IMG/VR virus record: IMGVR_UViG_3300029787_000012
Coordinates: 30,185-90,647 of that record
Strand: one strand, 5' to 3'
DNA length: 60,463 nucleotides
Source: a virus
Part shown: positions 1 through 47,500 of the stretch, piece by piece
Layout of the letters: each line of letters starts with the position of its first letter
Position numbering within the stretch: position 1 is the stretch's first letter
Notes under the pieces: model-generated
The model's input: only the letters and a program-made list of their open reading frames with translations
What the model was told of the DNA's origin: nothing
Databases searched by the model: none
Translations under genes and position numbers: made by a program

Positions 1-2136
1 CGCTACGTTTGATAAGTTAAAGTTTAATGTATCTCCAACACTTATAGTTACTCCTGCATTGTTACCACTAACATTACCATTTCTATCAGTTCCATTTAAT
101 GTGTAATATGAAGCACTAGGTGCGGTTACTGTTATATTGTAAGTGTTTGATACTGAACCACCAGATCCCGCTGTAGATCCAGTTGTTCTCAACTGACATT
201 TCTTACCAACATTTCCTAGGAAATGAGAAGAGTCAGCAGGGTTGAACTTTATCTCTAAGAAATTATTTCCTGCTAAAGTTACATATGGATTGTCTATTAA
301 TTTCTTATCTTCTATACTATTAGTTGGATAGTATGTGGATGAACCTTTTCTTATATCTCCAGTAGCATCAGTGGTTCTACAGAAAGTTTTAAATGTTCCT
401 GTTAAATTATTTGTAGTGAGTGTGTATCCATTTGCACCACACCACGCCAGAGCAATACCAGCAACTAAAGGTGCTGAGAATGATGTACCACTTATAACTG
501 TATAGTTACTTGCACTTGTCTGAGGTGTGTTTGCTAACCAATCATATTGTGGAACTAAGATTCTAGAACCTGGTGCTACTAATGTTACGCCAGCACCATA
601 GTTTGAGAAGTTTGCCCATCTATCATTATACTCAGTTGCACCAACAGATACTTTATTTTGATTTGCATCTACATTGTTTATACCACCATTGGTATTGTCA
701 GCATATCCTGCAGTCCTTGAACCAGCAATACACTTTGCTTGTATAGGTCCTGCAAAGGCATCCGCACTATTTTTAAATCCATTACCAGCTGACCTTACAA
801 TAATAATATTGTATGTGCTTGATATAGTTCCTTCAATGTCGTCTAATAACTCTTCATCAGTTCCACTGTCGGAACCAGCGTCATTTAATTCAACGTAAGG
901 ATAATTCTGTGTTGGTATAGTAGGACCAAAGGATGAGTTGATAACAGCTGGACGATTACTACCTTTATAATTTGCATTACCACTGGTGTTGTGATCTATA
1001 ACTGCCTGATAAGCACTAAGTATGTTCGTATAAGATGCTGATAATGTACTATCAAATGCCTTAAGTGCATATATCTTTGATCTCTTTGACACGCCAGCAG
1101 TTCTCCCAGCCGCCAAAATAGCACAGTGAGTACCATGTCCATTGTCATCTTCGTTATTAGATCCATAACCACCAGCATAATGTGATAACTGGAATACTCT
1201 ATAGTTCTGTTGTTCTGTAGTACCGTTTAAGTCAGATACAAAGTTTGGGTCATATAGTTCAGAATGTAATGCTGCGTTGTTACCTGTAGGTCTACTTGCT
1301 CCTCTTACACCAGTATCAATGACGTATAGGTCAGCACCTTCACCTTGCTGACTGTAACTAAATTGTCTGTTTAAATATTGCCTATCTTGTTTTGTAATTC
1401 TATCTAAATGCCAGTAGTCAAATATGTTTATGGTACCATATTTGTTTGGAGACGCACCATAACGTCCCATTCCAGCAGTAGTTACATTGTAAAAATATAG
1501 TATAGATGGTGTCGCAGAACTTACTACTAATTCTACTGATGCACCAGCTTGTCCTGCAGTTCCTGATGTAGTTACACCTGTATTGAAAGATACTCCCCCA
1601 GTAGTATGTGTGCCATCTGGAGTTATAGAGAATAACATTGGGTGACCAGCGTTAGATGAATCACTCTGATCAAAAGTATATGTTGCTCCGTCTAAGAAAC
1701 CAGTTTGGTTTGCGTATGTTGTATATGAACCACCTTGTGTCTGTGAAAATACGAACAAATCGTTTCCACTCGTAGAGTCTACTTTGACATATATTGTACC
1801 TGTTCCACTTCCTGTTAAGGATCTAGTATTACTAGTTGTATTGTTTTCTCCAGTAGAGTTTAGAGTGGTAGACCCACTAGTTACAGTTGTTAACTGAGAC
1901 TCTTGTATTGGATTACAAGAAATTCTATTCTCATCCCATGTTGCTTTCTTAACAACATTTAATGCTCTGAGTTGATCCAAGATAACGCTCTCATATCTCT
2001 CAGGACAATCAAACGATACTATGGAAAAAGTTTTAAAATATTCTACAAAGGTTAAGTAACCATATAATTTCAAGATTGCTGACGTTGCAGAATCTAGACT
2101 ATAGTTATCACTGACCCTTACTATTACCCTCTTCAT
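1..2136 (-). CDS. Subtilisin-like (S8) serine protease with inserted cupredoxin-like domain, partial
   Basis: The gene starts at ATG 2136 and is open for 712 codons to the window edge, so its C-terminus is missing. Residues 1-75 resemble an I9-type propeptide or inhibitor domain. Residues about 105-215 form a beta domain of the cupredoxin-like type seen in other phage fibres (TYTFDQSDSSNAGHPM ... LYFYNVTTAGMG). The S8 catalytic domain follows with all key residues: Asp274 in VIDTG, His334 in NGHGTHC, oxyanion Asn452 in SAGNG, and Ser552 in SGTSFSAP. After about residue 600 comes another beta-rich segment. The gene is last in the minus-strand structural block, after fibre genes, which suggests a virion or late protein that cleaves phage or host-surface proteins. 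The family assignment is sure from the triad; the biological substrate is inference. No signal peptide is evident. Confidence 0.93.
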   Translation of the reverse strand, partial: MKRVIVRVSDNYSLDSATSAILKLYGYLTFVEYFKTFSIVSFDCPERYESVILDQLRALNVVKKATWDENRISCNPIQESQLTTVTSGSTTLNSTGENNTTSNTRSLTGSGTGTIYVKVDSTSGNDLFVFSQTQGGSYTTYANQTGFLDGATYTFDQSDSSNAGHPMLFSITPDGTHTTGGVSFNTGVTTSGTAGQAGASVELVVSSATPSILYFYNVTTAGMGRYGASPNKYGTINIFDYWHLDRITKQDRQYLNRQFSYSQQGEGADLYVIDTGVRGASRPTGNNAALHSELYDPNFVSDLNGTTEQQNYRVFQLSHYAGGYGSNNEDDNGHGTHCAILAAGRTAGVSKRSKIYALKAFDSTLSASYTNILSAYQAVIDHNTSGNANYKGSNRPAVINSSFGPTIPTQNYPYVELNDAGSDSGTDEELLDDIEGTISSTYNIIIVRSAGNGFKNSADAFAGPIQAKCIAGSRTAGYADNTNGGINNVDANQNKVSVGATEYNDRWANFSNYGAGVTLVAPGSRILVPQYDWLANTPQTSASNYTVISGTSFSAPLVAGIALAWCGANGYTLTTNNLTGTFKTFCRTTDATGDIRKGSSTYYPTNSIEDKKLIDNPYVTLAGNNFLEIKFNPADSSHFLGNVGKKCQLRTTGSTAGSGGSVSNTYNITVTAPSASYYTLNGTDRNGNVSGNNAGVTISVGDTLNFNLSNVA

Positions 2137-2690: not shown

Positions 2691-3401
2691 TTAGTGTAGA
2701 AATGCATTGAAGGTTAGGCGGTCTACATCCCATCCCTCTTGTCTAAAATATGGCGAGTGCCACATTCTACCTTCATAAACAAGGAGAGTATTGAATTCGT
2801 GTTTTTCAACATGGTACCTCTCCCAATGTTTAGTTTTGTATTTTGATGGATCAAAGTTAACATATGCATTTACTTTGTTAACTATCCGTTCTATCCGATA
2901 ATTTTTATCAGATGAAACAAACTCCTCATCATACTCAGCGTGTCTCCAAAATGCAGTACCGTTATCAGTATCTTCCATTTCTTCATCATAGTTTAATGCT
3001 AACACAGCAGCGTAGTGTGTGTCATCCGTATGAGGTGTAAGACTACACATTCTACATTTCTTTTCTACTTCGTAACTTTGAAATGTAAAATGAGAGAACT
3101 CTGGATCCTTCATTACCTTCTTAGATGCTTCAAAATAATTGTTTAAGATAAATCTAAACTGAGGTAATAATTGATTTGAAACATGTCCCAATCTAGAAAC
3201 ATAACCTGGCAAATTAGAAAACTCACCACCGACAGTAGATACATAATCTGCTGCCATAGCGTATGCCCTAACTTGCTCTGGGTTAACAAAGAAATTTTTT
3301 ATCTTAATAACTCTGTTCTTTGCTTTACCTATATGAAGTTGTTCTACTTCCCAATCTTTTGGGTGTAGGGAATTTAATATCTTTGGATCAATTATTTTCA
3401 T
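2691..3401 (-). CDS. 2-oxoglutarate/Fe(II)-dependent oxygenase-like protein
   Basis: The 236-residue protein carries the facial triad of 2OG-Fe(II) oxygenases: His124 and Asp126 in TPHTDDTHY, distal His215 in GRMWHSPYF, and a candidate 2OG-binding Arg228 in VDRLTFNAFL. The spacing and the C-terminal jelly-roll strand ending FNAFLH fit the DUF6445/prolyl-hydroxylase-like group common in marine T4-like phages. It should use 2OG, O2 and Fe(II) to hydroxylate a substrate. The substrate cannot be read from sequence. Its ATG overlaps the stop of the U32-methyltransferase gene in an ATGA arrangement, so the two enzymes are translationally coupled and may act on the same target. Family confidence is high; substrate is unknown. 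Confidence 0.85.
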   Translation of the reverse strand: MKIIDPKILNSLHPKDWEVEQLHIGKAKNRVIKIKNFFVNPEQVRAYAMAADYVSTVGGEFSNLPGYVSRLGHVSNQLLPQFRFILNNYFEASKKVMKDPEFSHFTFQSYEVEKKCRMCSLTPHTDDTHYAAVLALNYDEEMEDTDNGTAFWRHAEYDEEFVSSDKNYRIERIVNKVNAYVNFDPSKYKTKHWERYHVEKHEFNTLLVYEGRMWHSPYFRQEGWDVDRLTFNAFLH

Positions 3402-5182
3402 ACTGTTTCTAACTGAGATGCATTTCTGTCTTCACCAAAATAATCTTTAATCAATTTGTCTTTACGTAAAACAAGAACATGTAGTCCATTCCACCAGTGA
3501 GTAGGATTCTCTATGACTCCACTTAGTATCCTTCTTTCAAAAAATACTTCTAACTGGTTCTCTTGTATAAAAGTAACTGTACTCTCAACAACACCATCAA
3601 AGTTGGCATCATCTACTACGAGTATGAACTGATCATCTAAGAATGGAAGAACATGGTTCAAGTTGTTCATCTGTTCCATCATATCATGATTTGCATCATA
3701 AAACAATATGTTAGGTTTAACACCATCAAAGTCTTCTTCTGTTAGTTCATCAATAGATGCTTTGACAAATGCTGCATTACCATTCTCATACTTTTCCCAA
3801 TAGTTTACTAGAGTATCATATGGGTTCCCAACCTCTGTCCACCTTATATGGTCTGTCAGGGGTCTTACATTAGACTCTGAGAAGTCATCTACTCCAATAC
3901 ACTTAACATTATTATTCATAGTTGCAGCAAAGAATGTGCTTCCAACATGAGTTCCAAGTTCTAGATATACTGCATCCTCGTGAGAACATAGACTGTTAAG
4001 GAAATGTCTAACACGATTAGAAGTTAATCCCATCGGTTCAAATCCATCAGGATTGAAGTTAGAGTTCTCTTGCATACCGTCATCTATAGCATTCAATACT
4101 CTCTGTACATACTCATCCATATCTACAGGTCTATCTTGTTTTTTAAGATGTGCATTAACAACATTTTCACAGTAGTTGCAATCCCAACAATCAAATCCAC
4201 AAGTCTTTATCTTCTCTCTCCATAAAGCAATAGGACTATCTTTTACAAGAAGGTCATCCATATACTTATTAAACTCTGGAAACATTGTTTCTATTTTTTC
4301 ATTGCCCCAAGCAGAAATTATATCCATGGACTCTTTGAGTTTCATAGCATTTTCTCTACCGTGCATTTTAAATACATCAATACCAAGATCCAAAAATTCA
4401 TTCCAATCTGATTTCCAAGGAGGTAAATTAGCTGCTTTCAGTGCGTGAGAGTTATCTTCTATATCCCACTTAGCACAAGAGTTTGTACTGATAGGATCCA
4501 TAAAGTATTGTGGAGTATCTTTTGTTCTTGTGCTATTGAAATGATAGTGTTCGTCCATCATAGAACAACCACCCCAACAACCCTCGTTAGTTAAAATTGA
4601 TAACTCTACAGGTTTGCCAATAGATGCACAGTATTCTTTTGCTTTTTTTATTTTTAATAGAGCATTCTTATCTCTCATCAAATCTCTATCTAAATTGATG
4701 TAATGGAATCCTGCTTCCGCAAGAGACACAACTTCATTTGCTCTACTTACATTTCTAAGTATTGTATTCTTAATCTTTAATTCTGGAAATTCTTTTTGTA
4801 AGATTCCTGTAGCAACCCAACTAGTATGTGGTATAGTTACTATCTTGACACCCGCTTCATATAGTTGCCTAAAATTTTTGACAAACAAATCCAGATGTTC
4901 TAAGTCTGGTCTTACGTAGATATTATTGAACGTTGCTGATAATGGTATACCAGTCTCTTGATGAATAGCATATGCATTATAAAACAATTGAACTGGGTCA
5001 CCTTGAAATACATCACCCATAGCATCCTGATTAAAAGGAGGCATCCTACACGTGAAGTATAAGTCAACAATATATTCTTTATGTCTTTTCAACCAAGGTA
5101 TGAATACATCCTCAGCATATCTCGAATCAATCTTTGGGTTTATTGGAAGACTGAAGACGGATTTTTTCTTTGGGGATGTCAT
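3398..5182 (-). CDS. U32-like Fe-S-type domain fused to class I SAM methyltransferase
   Basis: The 594-residue protein has two parts. Residues about 15-365 form a TIM-barrel-like domain resembling U32-family proteins (LSATFNNIYV, AGVKIVTIP, AEAGFHYINLDRD). It has clustered cysteines that could hold an Fe-S cluster: C202 and C206 in NEGCWGGCSM, C236 in NSCAKW, and C328, C332, C335, C338 in TCGFDCWDCNYC. Residues about 385-575 are a class I SAM methyltransferase of the Methyltransf_24 type: motif I YLELGTHVGST at 406-416, acidic D431/D432, FYDANHD at 494-500, and DDAN at 524-527. The start overlaps the preceding gene by 56 bases and the end overlaps the 2OG oxygenase. The domain reading is from motifs; the combined reaction is unknown. 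The N-terminal part may not be a peptidase, since several U32 members (UbiU/UbiV, RlhA) act in O2-independent or RNA hydroxylation. Confidence 0.75.
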   Translation of the reverse strand: MTSPKKKSVFSLPINPKIDSRYAEDVFIPWLKRHKEYIVDLYFTCRMPPFNQDAMGDVFQGDPVQLFYNAYAIHQETGIPLSATFNNIYVRPDLEHLDLFVKNFRQLYEAGVKIVTIPHTSWVATGILQKEFPELKIKNTILRNVSRANEVVSLAEAGFHYINLDRDLMRDKNALLKIKKAKEYCASIGKPVELSILTNEGCWGGCSMMDEHYHFNSTRTKDTPQYFMDPISTNSCAKWDIEDNSHALKAANLPPWKSDWNEFLDLGIDVFKMHGRENAMKLKESMDIISAWGNEKIETMFPEFNKYMDDLLVKDSPIALWREKIKTCGFDCWDCNYCENVVNAHLKKQDRPVDMDEYVQRVLNAIDDGMQENSNFNPDGFEPMGLTSNRVRHFLNSLCSHEDAVYLELGTHVGSTFFAATMNNNVKCIGVDDFSESNVRPLTDHIRWTEVGNPYDTLVNYWEKYENGNAAFVKASIDELTEEDFDGVKPNILFYDANHDMMEQMNNLNHVLPFLDDQFILVVDDANFDGVVESTVTFIQENQLEVFFERRILSGVIENPTHWWNGLHVLVLRKDKLIKDYFGEDRNASQLETV

Positions 5183-20437: not shown

Positions 20438-20445
20438 TATTTATA
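20438..20445 (-). promoter_or_regulatory. T4-like late promoter before 177-aa gene
   Basis: The minus strand reads TATAAATA, 22 bases before the start of the 177-residue structural gene, at the end of the 2426-residue fibre gene. Confidence 0.72.
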
Positions 20446-23400
20446 CCTTAACTTTTGTAGTTGTGAATCTACCAGTAAAGGATGTTGATGAACTAGCAGC
20501 ACTAGATTTTGCTAGTGAGATGTTAACGTTGCTACCAGCAACAGCAATAGTTGCATCTACAAGGTCATTATCTGATGTTACTGAGTTTGTAACTGTGGCG
20601 TGTGCAGTGGTTCCTGCTGCAGCACATATAGTTGTGACTTCTAACATGTGAACTTTACCATCGTTACTTTCAATGGTAATTAATGTCTTAGCACCCTTAT
20701 ATGATGTCTTATCAAATTGTGTTATCGCTGCGTTAGCAGTAAAGGATGTTAATTGTCCACCTTCTACTCTACAGTCATCTAGTTCGACAAAATCACCTGT
20801 AGAATCAAAGACAGTTAGATATGATGTTGTTCCACCATTCCAACCTCTGTTAATTTTCCATGCACACTCAGATCCATTTGCATCTAAAGATATGAATGCT
20901 TTAGAATCTAGTCTTGTAACAAAGTCTTGTTGAATTACATCAGTACGAGCAAATGGTGATTTAGTATTTGATAGAGTTGTAACTGGGAATGTTACATCAT
21001 TTGCGGGAGTAGCACCACCAAGTAGATCACCAGTTATTGTTATAACTTCTTGAGCTTCATAGAAATCACCACCAGTTGCAATGTTTATCTGATCTATATT
21101 TCCACTACCATTAGTTGTAACATTGAATGTTGCTCCTGTACCTTCAAACTGAGCTACTGATACCACACCACTATATGATTGAGATACACCATAAGCACCA
21201 GTGCTTGCTGTCTCAGTTCCAATAGCGGATATTGTACCTTGTGTAGGAACTCCTCTAAATCTTAATCCATTAGAAATTTCAAAATCTTTCTTTGATCTAA
21301 AGGATGCTATATTAGCACCAGAAAATGTAACTGAGAATGGGTCACCAGCTGAAGTTCCGTTAAAGATTGCTGTGCCAGGTACGTCAAATTGTTTTGCGTT
21401 CTTAAGAACAAATTTATCTTTATCAAGTGATAAACAATTAACACCAGCTGCATAGAACTCAAATGTGTCTTCATCAGAACTAGGTGATACCTCAGTTAAG
21501 ATGTAAGTATCTTGGTCAACGTCACGAACACCACCAAGAGAAACAAAGTCGTTTCCATTGAAACCTTCAAACTGTAACTGTGTAGAGTTAAATCTAATTG
21601 CACCAGCTAATCTATCTGAAGTGCCAGGTCTTTGGTTTGTTGTACCAGATGGAATTACAAATGCACCTGTACTGTTTACCCAAACACTCTTACCACCACC
21701 AGGTTTCAATACAAGACCTTGACCTTGTGTATCACTTACAGTAACTGTGTTTCCAGTTCCAGAACCTATGGTTGTAGGATTTAAAGTTATATTATCACCA
21801 ATGTAATAGTTGTAACCTCTTGTTGCTGCTGTTGGAGTTACCGATGTAATTGCACCTCCAGAAACGACAACTGTAAATGTTGCTCCAGTTCCAAGTCCAG
21901 ATGTTCCAGTAGATGTAACCGCATTGTAACTACCATCAGTATATCCAGATCCAGTTCCAGTAACAGTACATGCTACAAGTTCACCGAATGATGCAGTTCC
22001 ACCAATATCAGCGTTATTGATTGTAGATCTCTTTATCTCTAATGCAGTATCAACTTTCAAATTACCTTTGATATCGGTATCACCAGTAATAGAGTCTATA
22101 GTAAACTGTGCTGTAGTACCGTCATTAACTTCAAATTGTACGTCTGTACCACCTTTAAGGATAAGATTTCCAGTTCCTTTTGGAGTAATGGTAACAGGAA
22201 TATTTGCATCTATACCAGCAGCAGTTATCTCAGCAGCATTATTAATTTGTAATCCAGATTGTACTGTACCAATGGTTGTTGTCTCAGCAGTAGGATCAAC
22301 TTTAAAGTATGGATTTGCTGCACCAAGCACAGAATCGACTATTAAATTATTTGCAGTCTCAAGTACAGTGTCACTCATCTTGATTTTCTGCACTCCTGCA
22401 CCAGAGTAACTTAACTCATTAGCAGCAGATCTATAGAAACCACTTCCAGTATCCGCAGCTAGTTGAATAGCTGGGGCAGCAGCAGTTCCTGCTTGTATTT
22501 TTAATTTAGCATTATCAACAAAGTTATCTGTGCCATTAGCAACTAGGTTTCCTGTAAGTGTTGATATCCCATTAACACCAAGAGTTGTTCCTATACTTAC
22601 TGCTGCTTGAGCTGTGATGTCTCCTCTGGTTGCTATAGTACCAGTGGTTATTGCGTCATTAGATACTGTACTGGTATTTCCAGTAGAACCCATTGTTAAT
22701 ATACCAGAAGCTGATATATTATACTCTGCAGATTTAAGAGCACCAGATGAAGCAATTGTTGTAACTTCACTAGTATCAATAGTTGCAGCTGTCAGTGCAA
22801 AGTTAGATCCATTATCACCCAAACCAGCAAAGTTTGTGGTGTCAAATACAACTGTTTGACCTGTAAAGAATGCGTTACCACCATCTGATAATACAACAGA
22901 ACTTGCATATCCAACTTTAGTAACAGTGAATTGGAATCCTGATCCACCACCAGCTCCAACATCAGCATCATCACAACTAAGAACATTTCCTATGTTGTAA
23001 CCAGAACCTGATGATACGATATCAGTTAATGAACTAATGCTTGTATCATTAGAGTTAATAGTATATGTGAAGTTATTTGTGTTACCAATTAAAGATGGGC
23101 TAGCAACTCTAACAACGTCTCCTGCTTTCCAACCAGTTCCTTGTCCACCTGTTGAGAATGCAACAGCAGTAACTGCACCACTAGCACCAACAGTAACATC
23201 TATCTGACCACCATCACCATAAACTCCTGCAGTTCCAGTTGTAATTGCGATGAAAGAACTCTCAGACATAGATTGTCCATGTTGAGTACAAGTATAGAAA
23301 ACTGTATTTGTGCTTGGAGTTGCGTTTTGTTTGATTACAAAATCAACAAAAGATCCAGCAGTACCAGGTGAACCATAAGTTCTAACACCAAAGTTTACGG

Positions 23401-26400
23401 TATCTGCTAATGATGTTCCATCTAATGATAATGGATGGTTAGTATTAGTGGTGTCAGACATATCAAAACGATATGTGTTACCTCTAACCATGGTTAAATT
23501 AGGTGCTTCAACTGCACCAGATCCTGTGTCTATAAAATATCTGTATGTCTCAATAGGTGCTGTATCTAAAACTCCACTACCGCCTGATGTAAAGGTTACA
23601 GTCTCACCTTGTTGGAAAGGTCCGTTAGCAATTGTTGCTAGATCATAGTAAGCAAAGTTACTGCCAGAATCAACATATGAGACAGTTGCAGTAGCACCAG
23701 AGGTTCCACCAGTTGCTGTATTACCTACGTTTACAGTTCCTGTAAATCCACCCCCCGCTACGAACTCAAATAATCCACGGTTCGCAACAGTTACTGTGTA
23801 AGTTGCAGCAGGAGCATTTGCATATATGTCAATTTGTTGATATGAAGATTCAGTACCACCAGTACCAGCATTGCTGATAGTTCCTGTTAGTCCAGCTACA
23901 GTTAGGGTTGCAGTAGCACCAGTTCCATCTCCACCAGTTAGACTTACGTTTTGATAAGTTCCTACAGCATATCCAGAACCACCAGATAAAATATTACCAC
24001 CAAAAGGTAATACAGTAATACTTGCTTGTGCTCCAGATCCAGAACCACCATTGATTAGAACTGTTGGTGCTGATGTATATCCGTCACCTCCAGAAGTTAA
24101 AGTTAATCCTGATACTTGACCTAATTCTGTGTCTAAAATAGCAGATGCAATAGCAGTAGTTTGACTAGTTCCTACGAATGATACTAATGGAATCTCTGAG
24201 TATCCATAACCACCACCATTCAAAGTAAGACTAGCGACTTGGTAAGTCATGTTTGCAACTGACAATGTTGCTCCAGAACCAGTTGGATCGTTAGTATTTG
24301 CAGTGACAGTTAAAGTTGGTGTAGTAGTGTAGACTGCGTTTCCAGTTGTGGATACAGTTGCAACTTGAGATCCAAGATTAACAGTAAGAGATGCGTCTGT
24401 AATTCCTGCACCTGTTTCACTGATAGTAAGAGATGGTGCAGCACCAGTTACATATCCAGATCCCGCATTATTAATCGTGATTGCTGAAATTGCTCCTGCA
24501 GAAACCGTTGCAGTAGCAGTAGCAGTTATACCTTGAAAGTTGTGTAATTCATTTGGAGTTGCAGCAGCAGTCAATGATATTGGAGATCCACCAGAAGTTG
24601 CTGACAACTGGATAGTGTTGTTGACTGTATCTGCATTTACAACATAATAAGAAGTTCCATTACTCAATCCATTTAAGTCTGAGTTACCATTATTATCATA
24701 AGTTACTTGATCACCATTATTAACCCAACTTGATGTAAATGTGATTGTATTTCCAGATGTAGATATAGCAGAGTTCGCATCAAATGCATTTGTTGGAGGA
24801 GCAGATAATGTTAGGTTAGGTGAAGTATATCCTGAACCACCACTTGTAATTGCAATCTGAGCAACTCGTGCAGCTGTGCTAAGACTAACTAAAAAACTTA
24901 TACTACCACTTACAGGAGTTAAGTTTGCTGATATATCAGGAGTTTGCTGGTATAGTCCATTACCTCCACTGCTAACAGTGATGTCTCCAATAGAACCATT
25001 GGTTGCTAGGGTTGCAGTTGCTGTGGCAACTTGATCTGGGTTTGATAGTAAAGGTGCTTGATATTGTCCTGCATCGTATCCTGTACCTTCATTAGAAATG
25101 GTAAGTCCAGTTGTAAGGTTTAATGCCTTTTTGTTGATAGCAAAATTTTTGTTGGAGAAAATACCATAAGAGGAGAAACCCGCTTGTGTGTAAGAACCAA
25201 CAGTAAACGCACAAGAAGAGTTACCAGTACCGATGATAGATGCTAATCTATTAGAAGCAAAGTAAATATTTTCTGGAGCAATAACCTGACCATTCAAAGT
25301 TATGTCTTCATCTCCAGCAGGGTCGAGGATTATCTTACCTGATGTGGATGTAACACTGTTACCCGCTAGTCGTAAGTTACCTGTTTCAACGTATGCAGGA
25401 TATATGTTTGTAGTACCAGTTGAGTCACTTAAAGTAATATTGGCAGCTGACTGAGCTGAAGATGTTGCAGCAAACTGTACGTTACCAGTAGAGGCATCAA
25501 CTGTAAGTGCATCACCAACTCTAAAGTCACCTTCGTGGTCTGTAGATGAATATAATACTTTACCACTATTAAGTTCTTCTACTTCATTTGCTTGAATAGC
25601 AAGTGAGGGGTCATTGGTATAGTCAGCACCAGAACCAACATAACCAAAGTTATGTCCAGAAAGAATAAGTTTTACACCAGCACCGTCTGCCTGTACACCT
25701 TTAGTACCGTATACACATGCAGATGCAGCTGAACGTAATTCAGCACCAAACTGAGCATAGTCAGCAGTTGTTACGACAGTAGCAGAATCACCACCGCTTG
25801 ATCTGATATCTGAAGTTCCACCAGAACTGTCAGTGAATGTTGTAGTTGCATCATTACCACCACCATGTAGTAATAATACAGTAAAGAGGTCTGATGAGAA
25901 CTCTCCAGTTGTAGGTGTAAAGTTACCAGAGTATGAACCTTGTGCTTTCTTAATTCTTATTTCATCAATATTTCCTGCAAATGCTTCTGTAGGAGATGAT
26001 GTGTCATAGTTAGAACCGACGACTACAGGTTTTGATGAACCATAGTCATTAGTGTCAGTGTAACTAGAACCTAATTCTGTTCCATCTAAGAATAGTCTTG
26101 TTGTTCCAGCACTTCTAGAAACAGCAACATGATACCAAGTATTGATTGCAAGAGTTCCACCAGAAATTTGAGATGAGTTACCTACTGCATAATGTAATGT
26201 AGTTCCATTCATATACACAGTGGGTGCTGTGTCCGTCGCAGAGGCGTTTCTTAGGTCAAAGATACGTTGTATACCAGAAACACTAGTAGGGCGTATAAAC
26301 GCTTCTAGAGTCCAGTTAGCAGTACCAAATCCAAAGTCACCATCAGCAGGAACTTGTAAGTTATCCTGAGTACCGTCAAATAGTATTGATCCACCACTGA

Positions 26401-27721
26401 ACTTACTCTGTGCAGTGTCAATTTGTGTATCACCAAATCTACTTAATATCTTTGCTGGTTTTGTTGTAGTTACAAATTCACCAGTTCCTTTACCATTGAT
26501 ATAGATGTAAGTTCCATCATTAGATGCAACAACACCACGACCAACTGCCTTCTTATAAGTTACATTACTAGAAGATATAGTACCAGAACCTGATGTAAAG
26601 GTTACGGTATTATTATCTACTTTAGTTACTTGGTAGAATCCATCTGTAGCACCACCACTAATAAAGTCTGCGTAGATATAATCATTAGATACTAGACCAT
26701 GTGCTGTTCTTGTTAAAGTAACAGTGGTTCCAGATCTTGTATATGTTCCTGACTGGAATCCATCTTCCAACTGGTATGCAACTTCACTTGTGTTGAATGT
26801 ACCAGCAGTACCACCTAATTTTAATCTTGTTTGTCCTGTGCCATATTTACCTGTAGCACCTTGAATACCTTGTACACCAATAGATGCAAAATAGTTGAAG
26901 CAATTTAACCACTCGACTCTAATACCATTAGTTGCAATTAAACCAATATTACCAGGTGTAATAAATGTACATTCGTTGAATAGTACAGAAGCATGTTGTG
27001 AGGATGAAGATATGTTGGCACCATCAAGCTTAGCACCACGTCCTGCATCTCCTTGTGCAAATCCATAAGGATCTGAACCAGATACTACACTACCTTTAGT
27101 TGTTACTGTAACTCTCTCAACATAAGGACTTGTAGTTGAATCTACTGATGTTCCTAATACAAAACCGTACCCAGTATCACCACTACTATCATATAAAAAA
27201 TCTTTAATTGTCAAATCAGATACTTGACAATCACCATTTAGAACTATTGCGTTATTGCTCTGCGTTGCATTCGTTGGTTTTATCTTTGTCGCACGTAAGT
27301 TTGTACCACGTACTGTAACACCATCAGGAATTGTTAGTGGAAATACTTCTTGGAATTCACCTGGTGCAATCATGATGCAGTCACCAGATGTTGCTTTGGT
27401 AAGTGCCTTTGTTATTGTAAGGAATGGAGTGTCTGGATGTTTACCATTAGCACTACCATGACCTAGCAAATCATTATCTGATCCTACTGATGCGACATAA
27501 TAAGTATTACCCTGACCATTCGTGATGTCAGCATTAAGCATCGCAGTGGTGATTTCACCAGTTGCAGGTTCAGCGTTTGCTACCTCGACTATATTAGAGC
27601 CGTCTCTGACGTAGATCTTTTTATCAGCGGTGTTTACCGCAACTTCACCATCAAGGAGTGTGGAAGTCGTCGGAGCCGCTGCTGCTGTGCTCGATCTCTT
27701 TAGCTTGATTCTCGTTGCCAT
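20441..27721 (-). CDS. Giant modular tail fibre with beta-helix, LamG and cupredoxin-like domains, 2426 aa
   Basis: Residues 1-55 (MATRIKLKRSSTAAAAPTTS, GEVAVNTADKKIYVRDG) resemble the Mtd N-terminal attachment domain. Residues about 75-300 are a right-handed beta-helix (YYVASVGSDND, GVTVRGTNLRATKI). About 310-370 is an HG...DFISGGATDG module. About 440-610 is a LamG-like jelly roll (FDGTQDNLQV, WTLEAFIRP, TWYHVAVSRS, IDEIRIKKA). From about 850 to 1400 there is a long array of GSGY beta repeats. About 1410-1505 is a cupredoxin-like domain with a full type-1 copper ligand set (NHPLSL plus FYTCTQHGQSM). Further GSGY repeats and a conserved C-terminal domain follow. The polysaccharide-binding look of LamG and the beta-helix suggests host-surface contact. 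It overlaps the preceding coiled-coil gene by 71 bases. Confidence 0.87.
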   Translation of the reverse strand: MATRIKLKRSSTAAAAPTTSTLLDGEVAVNTADKKIYVRDGSNIVEVANAEPATGEITTAMLNADITNGQGNTYYVASVGSDNDLLGHGSANGKHPDTPFLTITKALTKATSGDCIMIAPGEFQEVFPLTIPDGVTVRGTNLRATKIKPTNATQSNNAIVLNGDCQVSDLTIKDFLYDSSGDTGYGFVLGTSVDSTTSPYVERVTVTTKGSVVSGSDPYGFAQGDAGRGAKLDGANISSSSQHASVLFNECTFITPGNIGLIATNGIRVEWLNCFNYFASIGVQGIQGATGKYGTGQTRLKLGGTAGTFNTSEVAYQLEDGFQSGTYTRSGTTVTLTRTAHGLVSNDYIYADFISGGATDGFYQVTKVDNNTVTFTSGSGTISSSNVTYKKAVGRGVVASNDGTYIYINGKGTGEFVTTTKPAKILSRFGDTQIDTAQSKFSGGSILFDGTQDNLQVPADGDFGFGTANWTLEAFIRPTSVSGIQRIFDLRNASATDTAPTVYMNGTTLHYAVGNSSQISGGTLAINTWYHVAVSRSAGTTRLFLDGTELGSSYTDTNDYGSSKPVVVGSNYDTSSPTEAFAGNIDEIRIKKAQGSYSGNFTPTTGEFSSDLFTVLLLHGGGNDATTTFTDSSGGTSDIRSSGGDSATVVTTADYAQFGAELRSAASACVYGTKGVQADGAGVKLILSGHNFGYVGSGADYTNDPSLAIQANEVEELNSGKVLYSSTDHEGDFRVGDALTVDASTGNVQFAATSSAQSAANITLSDSTGTTNIYPAYVETGNLRLAGNSVTSTSGKIILDPAGDEDITLNGQVIAPENIYFASNRLASIIGTGNSSCAFTVGSYTQAGFSSYGIFSNKNFAINKKALNLTTGLTISNEGTGYDAGQYQAPLLSNPDQVATATATLATNGSIGDITVSSGGNGLYQQTPDISANLTPVSGSISFLVSLSTAARVAQIAITSGGSGYTSPNLTLSAPPTNAFDANSAISTSGNTITFTSSWVNNGDQVTYDNNGNSDLNGLSNGTSYYVVNADTVNNTIQLSATSGGSPISLTAAATPNELHNFQGITATATATVSAGAISAITINNAGSGYVTGAAPSLTISETGAGITDASLTVNLGSQVATVSTTGNAVYTTTPTLTVTANTNDPTGSGATLSVANMTYQVASLTLNGGGYGYSEIPLVSFVGTSQTTAIASAILDTELGQVSGLTLTSGGDGYTSAPTVLINGGSGSGAQASITVLPFGGNILSGGSGYAVGTYQNVSLTGGDGTGATATLTVAGLTGTISNAGTGGTESSYQQIDIYANAPAATYTVTVANRGLFEFVAGGGFTGTVNVGNTATGGTSGATATVSYVDSGSNFAYYDLATIANGPFQQGETVTFTSGGSGVLDTAPIETYRYFIDTGSGAVEAPNLTMVRGNTYRFDMSDTTNTNHPLSLDGTSLADTVNFGVRTYGSPGTAGSFVDFVIKQNATPSTNTVFYTCTQHGQSMSESSFIAITTGTAGVYGDGGQIDVTVGASGAVTAVAFSTGGQGTGWKAGDVVRVASPSLIGNTNNFTYTINSNDTSISSLTDIVSSGSGYNIGNVLSCDDADVGAGGGSGFQFTVTKVGYASSVVLSDGGNAFFTGQTVVFDTTNFAGLGDNGSNFALTAATIDTSEVTTIASSGALKSAEYNISASGILTMGSTGNTSTVSNDAITTGTIATRGDITAQAAVSIGTTLGVNGISTLTGNLVANGTDNFVDNAKLKIQAGTAAAPAIQLAADTGSGFYRSAANELSYSGAGVQKIKMSDTVLETANNLIVDSVLGAANPYFKVDPTAETTTIGTVQSGLQINNAAEITAAGIDANIPVTITPKGTGNLILKGGTDVQFEVNDGTTAQFTIDSITGDTDIKGNLKVDTALEIKRSTINNADIGGTASFGELVACTVTGTGSGYTDGSYNAVTSTGTSGLGTGATFTVVVSGGAITSVTPTAATRGYNYYIGDNITLNPTTIGSGTGNTVTVSDTQGQGLVLKPGGGKSVWVNSTGAFVIPSGTTNQRPGTSDRLAGAIRFNSTQLQFEGFNGNDFVSLGGVRDVDQDTYILTEVSPSSDEDTFEFYAAGVNCLSLDKDKFVLKNAKQFDVPGTAIFNGTSAGDPFSVTFSGANIASFRSKKDFEISNGLRFRGVPTQGTISAIGTETASTGAYGVSQSYSGVVSVAQFEGTGATFNVTTNGSGNIDQINIATGGDFYEAQEVITITGDLLGGATPANDVTFPVTTLSNTKSPFARTDVIQQDFVTRLDSKAFISLDANGSECAWKINRGWNGGTTSYLTVFDSTGDFVELDDCRVEGGQLTSFTANAAITQFDKTSYKGAKTLITIESNDGKVHMLEVTTICAAAGTTAHATVTNSVTSDNDLVDATIAVAGSNVNISLAKSSAASSSTSFTGRFTTTKVKV

Positions 27722-38578: not shown

Positions 38579-38586
38579 TATTTATA
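38579..38586 (-). promoter_or_regulatory. T4-like late promoter before gp8
   Basis: The minus strand reads TATAAATA, 22 bases upstream of the gp8 start; it overlaps the end of the 4261-residue gene. Confidence 0.75.
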
Positions 38587-41500
38587 AGGATCTTAGACGA
38601 ACTTCTGGGAGAAGACTCACGTTTCCGCTTGTTGTCCTAGAGAATGGGAACTCAACTGTAAATGTAGTCGCTCCTGTGACGGTAACTATGTAGGTTCCGT
38701 CAAAACCTGTTCCACTTGTAAAGTCTAGATAAATTGTCTGACCTGTAGAGAAGAAATGATTACTTGATGTTGTTACTGTACACGCAGTTCCACTAGAACT
38801 ATAAGTTCCTGTTATCACAGCATGTTCTGCAGCAGTTGTTCCTAGATAACCCCTACCACCAGTTGCAACTGTTAAGGTATTACCAGAAACATCTTTTGCA
38901 CCAAATAAAATTCTTTCCGCATTCCATCTGTTTGGAGTAACAGTTGTATCATAGAATGGTATTAATACCTCACCCTCATCTGGGAAACCATTCTTCTGTG
39001 AGGAATTGTACCAAACATTTTTAAGATTGATAGTAGTTCCAGATTGAGAAAGTGTTGAGGTTAAGTAAGAGTTGGCAAGATTCTTAGAATTAGAAATAAT
39101 TCTATTTCTTTGTTTTCTTTCAATCGCCATAGGATGAGTTGGATTTACTGTAGGAGTTCCTTGAGTATATCCTGCACCACCATTCAAATTGATAACGTCA
39201 AGAACTTTACCACTACCTTGCTCAATAACAGTTTCTGCAAATGCACCTTCACCTCCACCACCTGTAAATACAAGGATTGGTGGAACTTCATAGTTTGAAC
39301 CAGGATCAGTGATATTAACCTGAGTTACCACACCATTTACAACTGTTGCAACAAATACTGCAGTTGTTGGTTTCAAACCAGTATATTCATAACTATCAAT
39401 CGTGATAGAACTAGAAATTTTAGCGATTGATCTATCAGAACCTTCACTTGCAATTTGCAATCTATCTCCTATATCAAGAGCATTGAATGTATTACTAATT
39501 AATACGTCAGCAGAAGAACCTGTGAAGATAAACATATTACATGTTGACCCTGCTCTAGGTGCTTCACTAAACTCGATAATAGAACCAGTTAATGAATATG
39601 CAACGCCAGGTTCCTGATATATTCCATTAAGGAATATTAGTAGATTGTTCTGTGCCTCTACTGATGGATTATCCGATTCTAATGAGAATGGTTCTGTCTC
39701 ACTCTTCATAACAAAAGTTTTCTTAGAACTATCAAAGAATGGTGCAATCTCATCAAGTAAAGTTAACTTACCAAGATAGAATCCATAGAAGTCCATACCT
39801 GGTACTGGTGGTTCATTAAAGGTTAATGTGCTTCCTGTGTATGTGTATGACTCTGTTGTACCTTTAACTTGGAAAGTACTATTCAAGAATATTAAGAAGT
39901 TATCACTTGCTGGTAGTACTTGTGTACTACCGCCTACCTGTGCAGTAAATGTTGTATCAGTACCGTCAAATGTTACTGTATCAACTCCAATTTGGAAGTA
40001 TGGTTGAGATGCAGAAGTCCTAGTAATACCAGATAAATCCCCAGTCGTACCAACGTTCATAGTTATTGTTGTCGTATCTACAGAAGTTAGATTTATTGCA
40101 GTGTCATAGAATGGGTCAGTTGATCTTGGATATGTATGGTTAGTAGCATAGTTGTCACGTGCACATGTAAATGTCAATGAGTTAGCAGCGATCTTAATAC
40201 TTGTTCCTGCAGTCAAACCGTGACCAGAACCAATAGTTAATACTAGTACACCTGTACTAGGTACATAACTCGCATCAGTCACATTATGATTGACTATAGG
40301 TGATGCTCCAACGTTGACTGTGATAGTATTAGTGGATGTGTTTGTAATAGTAATAGTTTGTCCAGATACAGGGTCAGTAGATCTTGGATAAGTCTTCGTT
40401 GCTGTATTTCCGTCCATAGCACATGTAAAGGACAGTGCATTGTCAGCTATGGTGAGTGTGTTAGATGTTGATAGACCGTGACCATTAGAGGTAATTACCA
40501 TATTACCTGATGATGGAGTATATGCTACGTTTGTTACTGGATTTGGTAAGTTACCAACGTTACTTGTAACACCGTTTGCTACAGCAGATACGAATGTATG
40601 TGCATAGTTACCACCTGACTGGACTGCATTACTTGCTGTACCGCCCGCCCATTGGTGAGTTCCAGAACCAACAGCTGTAGTAACTATATTCCATAGAGTG
40701 CTTATAGTGGATGCTACGTCTATACAACACGCAGTTGAGTATGATGTGCTTCCAGAGTCGTTACTGATTGTATTGTCTTTTATTTGTGTACCGACTGTGT
40801 AACTATTTGTAGTAACAGTAAGGTTACGCATAACCTCACGACATATATCTCTAGCGTGATTGAATACTTGTATAGACTCTGCTTCTTCATCTGCTAGGTG
40901 AACTGTAGAAACATAGAGACTTGCTGCATCATATGTTGCATCGTTTCCACCAAACTCTACGTTGTCAGAAACAGCATCAATAAGGATCTTAGTATCACGA
41001 ATACACTTAACTTGATAACTGCTAGAGAATCCCGCATTGTTTGCCATCATTCTGCCATATGCAGTAGTAGCAATGAATTCCTGATTAGTTCTCATTAATG
41101 ATGCAGCGTCAGCACCTTTGCTATATGCATAGACACCGTATGATACAACTGCTCTTGTGACAGCTGTAGAAGTGGCACTCACAAAAGTATGAGTTGATGT
41201 ATCAGATGATACACCGACATAAACAGTGAATGTATCATTTGTTACTTCATCAATTGTTAACCAAGCACCCTCTGCTGGATCTCCAACTCTAGGATAGGTA
41301 TGGTTTGTAGAATTATTATCTAAACCACAGGTAAATGTAAGAGAGTTATTTGCAAACTGTATTCTATCACCTTTAATCATTCCGTGAGAAGTTTTAGTCA
41401 ATACCATCTTCCCATCAACAGGTGTGTAAGTGATACCAGTTGGTTGGAACTGATAAGTTGATAACCCAACCCATGTATGTGCGTCTGTGTTGGTAGGAGC

Positions 41501-44500
41501 AGTTCCGTTTAATGCATTGACTTCAATAGTAGTAGTTGCAATTGCCTCAACAGGTATATCTCTCATCTTACCTTGTGTACCCAGTGGGTCAGTAGCACGA
41601 GGATATGATGCAGTACCACCACCGTTGTAACCACAACTAAACTGTAATGATTCGTTTGCAATTCTAACTGTAGATACTGCCTTCTTAATACCGTTTGATA
41701 CTGCTGATACAAATGTATGTGGATCAACGTTAGTGGAAGGGATAGTATCAAGAATCTGTACAGTGAATGTATTTGCAGTTACGTCAAATACTTGCAACCA
41801 TCTATCAGAAGCGTAGTCAGTAGAACGAGGATATGCCTTCTCTGCAGCAGCACCAGTAGCACCACCAAATCCACAACTGAATGTTATAGAACTATCTGCA
41901 AATTTAACTTGATCGCCATTTACAAACCCATGACTGTTAATAGTTACTACCATCAAACCTGTATTAGGATCGTATGTTGCTGTGGATGCTGTGTGAGTTG
42001 TTGGTGCCAATAAACCGTGACCAGAACCAATAGTCAATACCATGGATCCTGTAGCAGGATCATATGTTCCATTTGTAGGAATGAAATGCTTGACTAATTG
42101 TTCTCCAACACGAGCATCGGAAATACCAAGTACATCATTAGATGTGTATCCATTTCCTGCAGCATTTAGTACAACGTTACTAACCGAACCATTAGTGACT
42201 GTAATATCAGCAGTACCACCTGTACCACTTCCAAGATTGTTCTTGAGTGGTACATTTGTATAAGTTCCATCGCTATATCCAGAACCAGGTGTCAATCCAT
42301 TAGTTACATCAAATGCTTTGAGTTCATCTCCTATCTGATCTAACTGGAAACTACCTGAGTAAGTCTGACGATCATAGTACATCGCTAAAACTTCAGTTCC
42401 GTCTAGAGGAGGTGTAAGGAACGTTATTGAATTATTAGCAAATGTATAAGTTGCTGGATTTGTAACTAAACCATTAGTTATTACAAGTAATTGTGACTTT
42501 GCAGCAGTCTTACCAATCTGAGTACCAATAGCAATACCATTTGTTCTGAGTAAGAATGTATCGTTAACACCATCAATATACATTCTGATTGTGTGTCCAA
42601 CACCAGTTCCTACTGCAGTCAGATCAATAGCATTTCCTCCCTCAGTTGTTGCAAGTTCTATATTATTTGCATCAACATATTTCACATAATATGTTCCGTT
42701 GTTTGATATTCCACCTATTGCAGTTCCAGTTCTATTATTTGGATAATTTCCTGTGTTTGAGGTAGGAAGAGTTGATGGATTGTCAATACCGTTTGTAATA
42801 ATACCAGATAATGTGGTTATTGCAGATTTAACGTCTGTACACCCTCCAGAATCGGTTGTAATGCTTAAATCAGTTGTTGGGACTATGGTTGTATATGTAC
42901 CAGCTGGTAAACTGTTTGTTACTGCTAGATTACATAAGTCTCTTGCCTTATTAAATGCAAATATTGTCTCAGTCTCTTCACCAGCAATGTGTGCAATGTA
43001 GTTTGCTGGATTTGTCCTTGTGACAGTTGATAAACTGTCTGAGCTTATCGCAGTTGTCACGATATTGAACAAAGTATCCATAGCACTATCTACAGTTGCA
43101 CATATCGCTGCATCAAACGTTACACCAGTGTTCTTAACTTGAGTGTATCCATGGTTTCCTGTGATTGTAATATCTTGATTGATTATAATAGATGCTGCTA
43201 GTTCTTTTGCTTTATTAAACGCCCATATTGCCTGTGTCTCTTCATTGTCTAGGTGTACAGTGTTAACGTATAAATTTGCTGCATCCCATACCTCACTATT
43301 TGCACCATATGTTAAATTGTATGCGATTGCTTCAACAACATCTACAATATCGTCAATACAGTTCTGATCACCGCCAGGTACACCAGCAAAACCTGATGGA
43401 ATACCAACTGTTCCATCTTGTAACATTTGATACACTGCTTCAGCAGCAATTAGATTCTTATTATCTTTAAGTAAATTTCCAGCATCAATATATGCGTTAC
43501 CTTGACTAACAACACCACCAACATATGAGTTAGTTGCTGCTAGTGTAAAGTAATTACCACCATACTTGAGATCGTTTGCCCAAGCAGCGATTACAAGTCT
43601 AGTATCTCTAGCACATGTCGCTCCACTGTAATTAAGTGATGGATACGCTGCATTTAAAGCTCCGATAGTCTCTTCAACAATATGATCAATGTTAGCAATG
43701 ATCAAATCTCTAGCATCTTGGAATCTATCTCCACCAGCTTTGTAAGTTACACGTTGACCTTCAAGTAAACCGTGGTTTGTAAGTGTAAGTCTATTATTTG
43801 ATACATCTACAATGCTAGAGGATGACGCATCAAAAGTAATTGATCTATCACTAATGTCATCAATCTTATAAACGATACATGATAGGATTTTTTGAATATC
43901 TAATAGTTGTCTACCAAATACTGATACCTCTGTAGGAACTGCTGCAGTGTAATCTGGTTTTGCTAGTGCAAAGTTATTGATTACAGATAACTTACCAGTA
44001 TTCCTTGCAGATGGTTTGGGCGTAACAAATGTTGTACCATTAAATGTAGTTCCTATACTATTTGTTGTTGATTGCCACCAGTCAGTATCATTACCAGCAC
44101 TTAAATTAAGGTTTGGTCTAGATCTATAGTCCTTCTTGACTGATTGTGATAGTACTTGTGTACCAACTACCTTAAATCCTGCAGGATGTGCAGCAAACTT
44201 AAGTGGATTCTTCCAATCGTTGATGTTTATTGAAGATGATACGTCATATGAGAATTCTTGGAATCTATTACTGTCATAAACACGTTGTTCATTAAGATCA
44301 AGGAATCCAGTGGTTCTTTCCCAACCAGACGCACTAATACTGATAGGAGAAACGTCAAAGACTGCATCTGCTCTGGTAAATGTATGAATTTGACCAAATG
44401 CTGCAGTCTCTTCACCAAATACAGGTTCACCAATCTTAAACTCACCTTCTATAATCTCTACACTAACAACACGACCAGAGGCATCCCAGTTCTTAACAAA

Positions 44501-47500
44501 TCCATATGCAGTAAAGGAAGATGTTGATGCACCTTGATAAATTCTTTCTCCGATAGAGAAAGTTGCTGGTTTCATATATGCATTGATAACATCACCAAGG
44601 TCAATAGTTTCTAAAGTGAAAGCAGTCTGCCCTGTTGATATATCTCCTACAGGAGCACTAGTAAAGTTAATGAATGTTTCTGTATTTGCATTTGCAAGAG
44701 ATGATGCTAATCTAATTTGGTTATCTGCTAATCCATTTGCTGTAGTTGCTGCAATGGCATAGTAAACAGTATTAGTTGCTAATGGTTCTGGGAACTGTCC
44801 AGTAGTCTCTATAAGAGTTACTTGTGTACCTGAGGGTATCTTTGCATTATATGGGAAGTTCAATGTGCTGCTAGATTGTAATCCAACAAAACTATGACTC
44901 ACTTTTGCAGTTACAGTAGGTGCAGATGTAAATCCTCTACCAGGATTCTCAACAGTTACTGCCTGTATTACTTCATTCTCAATAATAGGTTTTAATGCAA
45001 ATAAAGAACCTTGTCCACCAGTAAGTACGATTTCTGGTTGAGATACAAAGTTTGAACCACCATTCACAACGTCAATGTAATCAATAACCTGAGTTCTAAT
45101 CAACTGTAAGTTATATGTTGTGTTTAGCGATGGTTTAAGTGTTCTATCATGTGAATAGTTGTATGTGATATTATCACCACTAATCTTAAGTATTTTTCCA
45201 AGGTCTGAAGATTTAAGTAATATAGATGCACCAGTTCCAGTTTTTTGTTCAATGTTGATAACAGGAGCACTTTGATATTGTATACCAGCTGCTTCTATAC
45301 CAATAGATGTAACACTCTGGTTTTGTATTGTTGCATTCAATACAGCATTAATTCCATTACCACCACTTACTGATATTGTTGGAGCAGATAAAAATCCAGA
45401 ACCTCCATTAGTAACTGTTACGGTGTCAATAGATGCATTGATAATAGTTGATATGGTTGCAGGATCAGCATGTGATAGTGTTTGAATTGTTATAGTAAAG
45501 TCTTCTGTACTATCACCGCCTGGTAACTTTGTACCATCAAAAGTAATTACATCACCTAGTGAATATGTACTACCGCCACCAGTAACAGATACTGTGTCTA
45601 TTCTTCCATTACCATCTGTTGTAAATGTAAATGTTGCTCCAGATCCACCAACGGGTGAAACAGTGGACTGTGTTACTCCAGTGGTTGTTGTAGTTGCAGT
45701 AAATGTTCCGTTACCCGCAGGTTGAGACGTAAGTGAGACAGTTGCGACAGATCCATAGTAAGGATCGTCAAATACGACACTTGGTGCGGATCTGTAATTA
45801 CTACCCGCATTTGTAACTGTCACAGAACTTAATTTACCACCCCCGCTTACAGCAGTGGCAACGATTGCTTGAGTTCCACTTATCGCTTGTATAGAACCTT
45901 GAGAGTCAGAACTGTATACATTATTGGTTGCAGCAGTTCCAGTACTGAACATGATGTAACCTTTATTACCAGCACCAGTTCTAGTGTTCTGTAATGGTTT
46001 TATTCTTAATACAGAGTTAACTGGGTTCCATGATATTACTTGAGCTCTTGCAGTTTGATTTCCTTGAGTTTCTTGAGATATAACGATCTCATTAGGTACG
46101 AATGAACCAAATACGTTTTGAAGCGTTAAATCAACAAAATCAGGTAACGTTACAACACCGTTAGGTAAAGATGAAGGATTATAACCAGATCCATCATTTG
46201 TAATTGATACACTAGATAATATTCCAGATATAGTTGCTACAGCAGTAGCACCAGAACCAGATCTTGTAGTTCCGTTGAATTTAGGTAAAGATGAGTAGTT
46301 TCTGCCAGGATCACCAACTGTAATTGTTTTTATACCACCTGTAGCATATATTGAGTTTGAAGCATATGATACGCCAACAGTATACCCTGCTTCTGGTTCT
46401 AGAGCAGTAATGTACTTAAACGTGGTATCTGTCTTTTCTGTAACCGTGTTTGTTCCAATTACAGGATCATTAATAGTTGTAAAGTAACTACCAGTTATTG
46501 CTCCCTGTAAATCGAAATAATAGAAAATACCAGGCAATCCTGTTATCTTAATCGTAATAGAGTTCTGTTCACTGGTTACAGAGTCTAATACTTCACTAGT
46601 AACGTTTTTATAAGTGAATATGTCTGTATTTGCTGGATCAAAGGTAAATGCTAACTTTTTACCCGCATTACTACTATCTGTAGTATCAAAGGTGTATGAG
46701 TGACCATCTATCAACTGTAACTTAGCTTCTTGAACATAAACTTCCGCAGTTGTGACATTTGCAGCTGCAGGAGTTGCAAAATTACTCTTTATCGTAAATC
46801 TACGTAAAGTTTCTGTTCTAATAACTGTATAGTCTGTCTTATTGTAAGACGTAGGTGAGACACCTGAGATATTGACTGTATCACCGATATTGACTTGATG
46901 TGCAAGATTCGTATGACATACTGCTTCTCTTTGTGTTTGTGTAAGTGTAATACTGAAACTAGAACCTCCTGCATTACCAAGGTTGATGTCTGCAGCAGAT
47001 ATTGTATCTCCTACGTTATATCCAGTTCCTGTTGAAGTAATCGTTACTGCAGTTACCGCATTTCCAGAAACAACAATAGTTGCTTGTCCACCAATACCAG
47101 ATCCACTAGTTGTTATAGGTACGTTGACATATGTGCCATTTGCGTAACCAGATCCACCAGTAATACTATTCCAACCACCTTGATATAGATTTCCATCTGT
47201 ACGTGTTCTTACATACGTCCATGTTAAGGTTCCGTCTGTTACAGTTCCAGAAGTGTGTGTAGGTGCATTTCCAGAACTAGAATCCGATGTTCCTGTATCT
47301 GCTGCTTTATAAACTCTGTTATCTACGTAAACAAGATCCTCTTTGTTGTACGCAGTACTCATTGTCCACGCAGAAAGAAGTTTTAAGCTCTGTAAGTCGA
47401 AATATTTGAAATGATACTTATTACTGATAATCTTACTGAATAGAGTTCTGGTATTTGCGTTATCAGTCACATCAACTGTAACTTGATCACCCACAAGTAA

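Follow-up and report, generated by a model that had tools for sequence, protein, structure and literature searches.

What could a subtilisin-like protease do in the structural gene block of a virus, and why does it share a domain with the giant fibre genes of the same DNA? These questions are raised by an open reading frame (ORF) on the minus strand at positions 1..2136 of the stretch analysed here (the window), which comprises 60,463 nucleotides, bases 30185-90647 of the 90,647-base IMG/VR virus record IMGVR_UViG_3300029787_000012. We found that its 712 residues are the N-terminal part of a subtilase-fibre protein that combines an S8 catalytic domain with cupredoxin-like domains and a stalk, encoded directly before gp13. 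On balance, we lean towards the reading that this protein is a structural fibre in the whisker slot whose zymogen protease works on the surface of the host. With the same measured confidence, this explanation takes the source phage to be a Prochlorococcus T4-like myovirus resembling Eurybiavirus.

The ORF is still open at the window edge, and a sequence-only reading of the window had listed its C-terminus as missing. The rest was recovered from the parent record, in which the frame reads through a run of 10 N, the last of them at the base before the window, to a stop codon and gives 1,961 codons; the remainder lies past the gap at G000:C1:26435-30174. The window part recurs with 100% identity in two other contigs (L010 and L011), where the ORF is uninterrupted and has 1,962 residues, so the gap is apparently a matter of assembly, and the break in the ORF looks like an artefact rather than a gene disruption. 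From the N- to the C-terminus, the protein is organized into a putative propeptide, cupredoxin domain 1, the S8 protease, cupredoxin domain 2, a beta-rich and immunoglobulin (Ig)-like stalk, which here includes cupredoxin domain 3, and a conserved C-terminal region.

The catalytic domain (residues 240-590; 367..1419, minus strand) was recognized by Pfam and by a profile search of the PDB, with a less certain structural likeness from VIA. PF00082 matched residues 272-573 with 93.4 bits (expectation value (E) 2e-26, cut-off 21.8), while NCBIfam gave weak serine-protease matches only, far under the cut-offs. The triad Asp274/His334/Ser552 and the oxyanion Asn452 proposed by the sequence-only reading were exactly numbered. 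These residues (minus-strand codons 1315..1317 for Asp274, 1135..1137 for His334, 781..783 for Asn452 and 481..483 for the nucleophile Ser552) lie in canonical S8 motifs, and none of the four varies in any of the 84 relatives, comprising 80 IMG/VR loci and the phages P-HM1, P-HM2, MED4-213 and S-BM3, with the duplicate S-BM3 locus L008 dropped. When a family profile of 45 sequences was compared with solved chains, aqualysin I was the best match (E 1.2e-22), accompanied by keratinase and proteinase K, and the printed aqualysin alignment has the Asp, His and Ser motif blocks in the same order. Proteinase K and aqualysin I share the catalytic domain and the motif order with the viral protein, but they are small secreted enzymes, whereas the viral enzyme belongs to a giant phage ORF with fibre modules. 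The AlphaFold model of the 712 residues, built on 39 alignment rows that were 67-93% identical to the window, had a mean predicted local distance difference test score (pLDDT) of 55. Because of this low score, the triad geometry is unreadable from the model; its similarity to proteinase-K-like chains (VIA Z about 15, root-mean-square deviation 3.5-3.7) comes from a catalytic part in which most residues have a pLDDT below 60.

The S8 domain and other parts of the protein are under purifying selection. The ratio of nonsynonymous to synonymous substitution rates (dN/dS) in the S8 domain was 0.084-0.124 in 8 of 8 pairs; these pairs share sequences, dS is above 1 or saturated in some of them, and two cells of the comparison have no value. 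Elsewhere the ratio was 0.1-0.517 in domain 2 and up to 0.511 in the propeptide where dS was tiny. With a median identity to the window of 75.7% (75 relatives), the S8 domain is among the best conserved regions. An adhesin that retains the protease fold and is no longer enzymatic would agree with the fact that we found no report of measured activity, but it is very improbable, as the catalytic residues are invariant throughout the 84 relatives, including the S-BM3 protein with 37-42% identity.

The enzyme may be made as a zymogen. Residues 1-75 (1912..2136, minus strand) form a putative Inhibitor-I9-like propeptide, assigned by a weak structural match. In the AlphaFold model, residues 1-70 reach a pLDDT of 68-85 in blocks, and Foldseek matched them weakly to solved subtilase prodomains, those of Tk-subtilisin and PC1/3 (2z56_B, target template-modelling score (TMt) 0.63; 9fid_E, TMt 0.68; E about 0.035). 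The self-activation suggested by the sequence-only reading is consistent with this modelled propeptide-like domain ahead of the core. The same domain would suit a narrower role, in which the S8 unit serves to mature its own chain by a single intramolecular cut and has no other target. We consider this improbable, because the invariance of the catalytic residues and the strong constraint on the domain exceed the apparent need of one cut in cis. In addition, autocleaving subtilases usually remain active after cleavage.

The position of the gene points to a structural protein. The ORF is closed in 55 of the 84 relatives, and gp13 starts within 5 bases in 51 of these 55; gp13 is also immediately downstream in the parent record. 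The four exceptions are S-BM3, L052, in which the ORF has 1,030 residues and gp13 is 2.0 kb further on, and L055 and L064, in which the contigs end 65 and 5 bases after the ORF, respectively. Together with gp8- and gp6-like genes elsewhere in the window, this adjacency bears out the earlier placement of the protease in a virion gene cluster. Head maturation is served separately, by a prohead protease of the gp21 type encoded in the same record (PF03420, E 7.6e-32). In T4, the slot before gene 13 is occupied by wac, the fibritin neck whisker, and by this positional definition the subtilase-fibre ORF is in the whisker slot. The S-SM1 gene in the slot before gp13 is annotated 'structural protein', and its product may be one of the 41 proteins of the S-SM1 virion that Sullivan et al. 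2010 (PMC3037559) detected by mass spectrometry. A comparison of loci L382-L383, L386 and L009 with L005 showed that the content of the slot varies among T4-like phages, with wac in T4, a structural protein of 1,988 residues in S-SM1, a 6.3-kb virion gene in S-BM3 and the subtilase here. Appendages of the neck or tail may be exchanged at this position.

A protease that stays outside the virion and acts late in infection, e.g., in lysis or degradation of host proteins, would be in keeping with the fact that its presence in the virion is without direct evidence. Such a role seems improbable given the location before gp13 in nearly all closed copies and the Ig and cupredoxin modules that the protein shares with annotated tail fibres.

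Past the protease, the composition of the chain is fibre-like. Cupredoxin domain 2 (residues 655-775) begins within the window, where its first half (residues 655-712; 1..174, minus strand) matched the domain 2 profile (A2) with E 2.8e-26. It is followed by a middle part that is beta-rich as judged by eye and by Ig-like repeats (Ig_3, E 8.8e-5, under the Pfam cut-off), and parts of this stalk match PHROGs named head protein, virion structural protein, tail protein and Hoc-like. Cupredoxin domain 3 is located at about residues 1395-1515 in the 1,961-residue form of the window. No part of the protein is better conserved than the last 200 residues or so (median identity 80.1%, 50 relatives), and a tblastn search with this C-terminal region matched 7 of 50,697 phage records, namely three phages with two records each and S-BM3. 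Of the closed ORFs, 54 have 1,650 residues or more; among them, all 13 with 1,700-1,799 residues have one cupredoxin-like domain, 23 of the 24 with 1,800-1,899 residues have two and the remaining one has three, and all 16 with 1,900-1,999 residues have three; the S-BM3 protein has two. Since the number of cupredoxins tracks the length class, the protein of this family grows in cupredoxin steps.

The sequence-only reading had also claimed that a homologue of the fibre cupredoxin-like domain is inserted between the propeptide and the catalytic core. The inserted domain 1 (residues 108-228; 1453..1815, minus strand) is indeed homologous to domains in two giant fibre ORFs, as found by searching 81 ORFs with hmmsearch --max, while the default filters missed both. 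One is in ORF 20441-27721 (residues 1407-1483; 23273..23503, minus strand; E 2.3e-9), in which the His/Cys/His positions are kept and a Met is nearby, and the other, in ORF 38582-51367 (residues 1549-1628; 46484..46723, minus strand; E 4.5e-7), is degenerate and has lost the ligands. Within the protein, domain 1 is similar to domain 3 (hhalign 99.4%, 1.9e-21) and more weakly to domain 2 (hhalign 46%, E 2e-4).

This homology offers some ground for a different role, in which the enzyme is an assembly protease. Tail or fibre proteins of the phage would be cut inside the infected cell, the giant neighbouring ORFs of 2,227-4,261 residues would be processed in this way, and the fibre-like domains would dock the enzyme to these substrates. 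The cupredoxin-like domain that the protease shares with two of the giant ORFs and its location on the same strand and in the same structural block would agree with such a role. We regard this role as unlikely, though less so than the other alternatives. A scaffold of 1,700-1,970 residues is more than one would expect of an enzyme that does nothing but process other proteins, a structural protein accounts better for the strongly conserved C-terminus and for the Ig stalk, and processing sites were not identified in this analysis.

The relationship of these modules to blue copper proteins was evident mainly from profiles. The A2 profile matched nitrite reductase (8.8e-5), plastocyanin (1.3e-4) and amicyanin. 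A joint profile (A7) was made of 54 domain rows picked from profile hits in this family, in other subtilases on viral contigs and in neighbouring ORFs; it omits the truncated L152 domain, the near-duplicates L128, L133, L175, L229, L239 and L242, the first domain of L168 and the ligand-less domain of ORF 38582-51367, and this choice of rows favours ligand-bearing domains. All 24 PDB sequences matched by A7 at E<=0.1 were copper proteins (best 8.5e-6). The profile of domain 1 alone (A1) had no useful match in the PDB, the best (E 0.064) not being a copper protein. Pfam Copper-bind was found in 9 of the 54 A7 members (best 3.4e-4) and was not reported for the window's own domain 1. The sequence-only reading had proposed a structure prediction for residues 100-220, and a stand-alone model of residues 108-228 was obtained with a pLDDT of 87.9 and a predicted template-modelling score (pTM) of 0.82. 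Its top VIA rows were cupredoxins of nitrite reductase and laccase, mixed with SO1698, at a Z of only 5-6; Foldseek gave no PDB match at E<=0.001, and its best rows were SO1698, described as an aspartic peptidase. Because of this, the cupredoxin assignment leans on profiles and ligands and not on structure, and the fold of domain 1 is only moderately supported by the model. When the model was compared with a library of predicted viral proteins, 35 entries matched at E<=0.001. Of these, 11 carry a name, which in 7 cases is that of a cyanophage virion, fibre, structural or baseplate protein; further down the list (E 0.007) comes an S8/S53 protein from Synechococcus phage ACG-2014h. The inserted domain recurs in proteins annotated as virion structural or tail fibre.

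The copper ligands of these domains are conserved to a high degree. In the 54 A7 rows, His165 is kept in 54, Cys217 in 53, His220 in 53 and Met223 in 51 (three Gln), and the four ligands are among only eight positions conserved in at least 90%, the others being Gly150, Thr152, Phe155 and Gly192. The 24 rows that are not domain 1 (8 from domains 2 and 3 of the same family and 16 from other ORFs) have His, Cys and His in 24 each and Met in 21, and all 16 rows from other ORFs carry the four ligands. The S-TIM5 virion structural protein and a tail fibre of pelagiphage Baldr have full ligand sets. In domain 2, all 65 rows with letters at these positions have Cys760, His763 and Met766, and 19 rows are gapped because the domain is absent or the contig is cut. 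The last ligand position of domain 3 is Met in 6 of 19 and Gln in 13 of 19. As to domain 1, 75 of the 83 relatives that have it (S-BM3 has none there) keep the full type-1 set. The only A7 row without the Cys and His is the window's own domain, in which His165 and Met223 are kept and Cys217 and His220 are replaced by Asn and Thr, leaving its ligand set incomplete; the same Asn217/Thr220 occurs in eight relatives (L010-L016 and L022). The dN/dS of domain 1 within this clade was 0.107 and 0.113 in two pairs, both with L014. Since the site was lost in the window's clade yet the domain is still constrained there, this clade can evidently do without copper in domain 1.

The modules look like metal-binding fibre modules, and those in most of the relatives examined keep a complete type-1 copper site, which would be expected to bind copper if sequence is a guide. 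They share the profile matches and the H...C-x2-H-x2-M pattern with plastocyanin, amicyanin and nitrite reductase, and differ from these blue copper proteins in being repeated in structural proteins and in the frequent Gln at the last ligand of domain 3. One could further imagine working type-1 copper centres as repeated modules on the fibres and the fibre-borne subtilase of marine T4-like virions; copper acquired by the released particles would then stabilise the fibre or the zymogen, or trigger it, once it is at the surface of the host. We consider this rather doubtful. However, the ligand pattern makes copper binding by phage fibre proteins a testable question, and if the fibres do bind copper, virion metals would matter in a new way. 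Prochlorococcus, one of the main phototrophs of the ocean, is a host described as copper-sensitive.

Several other subtilases on viral contigs are combined with cupredoxins in different ways. In the S-BM3 protease (L009:20316-28262), our reading of the translation places one cupredoxin-like domain between the His and Asn motifs of the catalytic region and none at the propeptide junction. This internal domain has its own His...Cys-x2-His-x2-Met pattern, with Pfam Copper-bind at only E 0.32; another cupredoxin follows the catalytic region, and a YHYH domain (PF14240, E 2.7e-37) is found further on. In the subtilases of L203, L214, L145 and L229, the cupredoxin-like domain is at the C-terminus; L152 is a truncated copy. 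In L203 (1,034 residues), the domain is near the end of the protein, and a fibre-like ORF just upstream ends in another one. In other viral subtilases, the domain is in a separate ORF on the same strand, 12 bases away in one group. In total, a cupredoxin-like domain was found at 21 of at least 120 viral subtilase loci, compared to 2 of at least 120 terminase control loci (Fisher test, 3e-5, with related loci treated as independent and both sets being the matches listed rather than random samples). One of these two control loci, L351, is a relative of the subtilase-fibre protein itself. When 107 S8 ORFs were grouped at 50% identity, cupredoxins occurred in only 2 of the 18 clusters, and thus the excess is mostly due to one phage family. 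We do not claim a general association between subtilases and cupredoxins.

The relatives link the protein to marine cyanophages. A scan of IMG/VR found 461 stretches whose encoded protein is related to the query in some part, of which the best 80 of 461 were examined; because one of the scan patterns was derived from the cupredoxin-like domain, some of the 461 may be fibres free of protease. Among isolates, full-length homologues of 1,827-1,840 residues were found in the Prochlorococcus phages P-HM1, P-HM2 and MED4-213, with 66-68% identity over all 712 residues. They are the genes PHM1_104, PHM2_106 and CPMG_00018, annotated 'hypothetical protein', and PHROG 27200 was matched across the whole 712 residues. 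They are the same gene in the same place before gp13, but they keep all four ligand positions of domain 1, of which the window form, with its third cupredoxin, has lost two. The records of P-HM1 and P-HM2 assign T4-GC 519. The S8 peptidase reported by Sullivan et al. 2010 is probably the product of PHM1_104 and PHM2_106; the accessible part of that paper lists it among 70 genes common to P-HM1 and P-HM2 and absent from the other cyanophages of the study, under the number T4-GC518 as opposed to 519 in the records. Because of this entry, the presence of an S8 peptidase is not new. In the main text, as available, of a report on expression classes of P-HM2 (PMC5082946), the terms peptidase, protease and PHM2_ were absent. 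A shorter match among isolates is SBM3_00202 of S-BM3 (2,648 residues), annotated 'peptidase S8'. It resembles the window protein in the catalytic region (38% by tblastn, 42% over aligned columns) and at the C-terminus (about 46%), and differs in its cupredoxins within and after the catalytic region, in the YHYH domain and in a gene set apart from gp13.

A scan of bacterial contigs gave a sole relative, L126 (PBPE01000110.1), 73% identical, on a 7-kb contig of a Dehalococcoidia metagenome-assembled genome; the scan patterns were the residues just before the core, which distant bacterial relatives could escape. L126 was taken for a probably mis-binned phage contig and excluded from all counts.

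We suggest that in the whisker-slot fibre the conserved C-terminus would attach the protein to the particle and the Ig-like stalk would hold the enzyme outward, with the cupredoxin modules perhaps serving as building blocks of the fibre. The propeptide may block the protease until the enzyme cleaves itself, either while the particle is assembled or later; once exposed, the protease could then cut surface proteins of the cyanobacterial host in adsorption or entry. Several points weigh against this. Pfam gave no Inhibitor I9 match in the 712-residue protein, and the structural match of the propeptide is weak. The gene slot is not strict, as the S-BM3 homologue lies 19.3 kb from gp13. Neither Pfam nor NCBIfam gave an S8 match for the S-BM3 homologue, and its assignment as a protease therefore rests on family similarity and the record annotation. 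The likeness to T4 fibritin is one of gene position directly before gene 13, with no homology implied, and wac is not known as a protease. In the literature we found no virion proteomics of P-HM1, P-HM2 or MED4-213 among the matches listed, and the virion proteomics set in the available part of PMC3037559 consists of S-SM1, S-PM2 and Syn9.

The S8 peptidase and its phage family are already known as annotations. The architecture, the slot, the step-wise number of cupredoxins and the conservation of the copper ligands were not encountered in the open-access literature among the matches listed; the same holds for a description of this protein in work on phage or cyanophage subtilases and for any paper that ascribes a cupredoxin or blue-copper domain to a structural protein of a phage. 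Fibre-borne enzymes of phages are mostly known as sugar- or cell-wall-degrading. A proteinase-K-like enzyme in a whisker-slot fibre of Prochlorococcus phages would suggest that there is a protein barrier or receptor that needs cleavage.

On the same strand near the protease, the window encodes a DUF6445 protein (2691-3401) and a 594-residue protein with a C-terminal methyltransferase domain (3398-5182). In the parent record, a second run of N is found at L003:2285-4820, in a DNA polymerase gene with a frame shift, and it looks like an assembly join and not a split gene.

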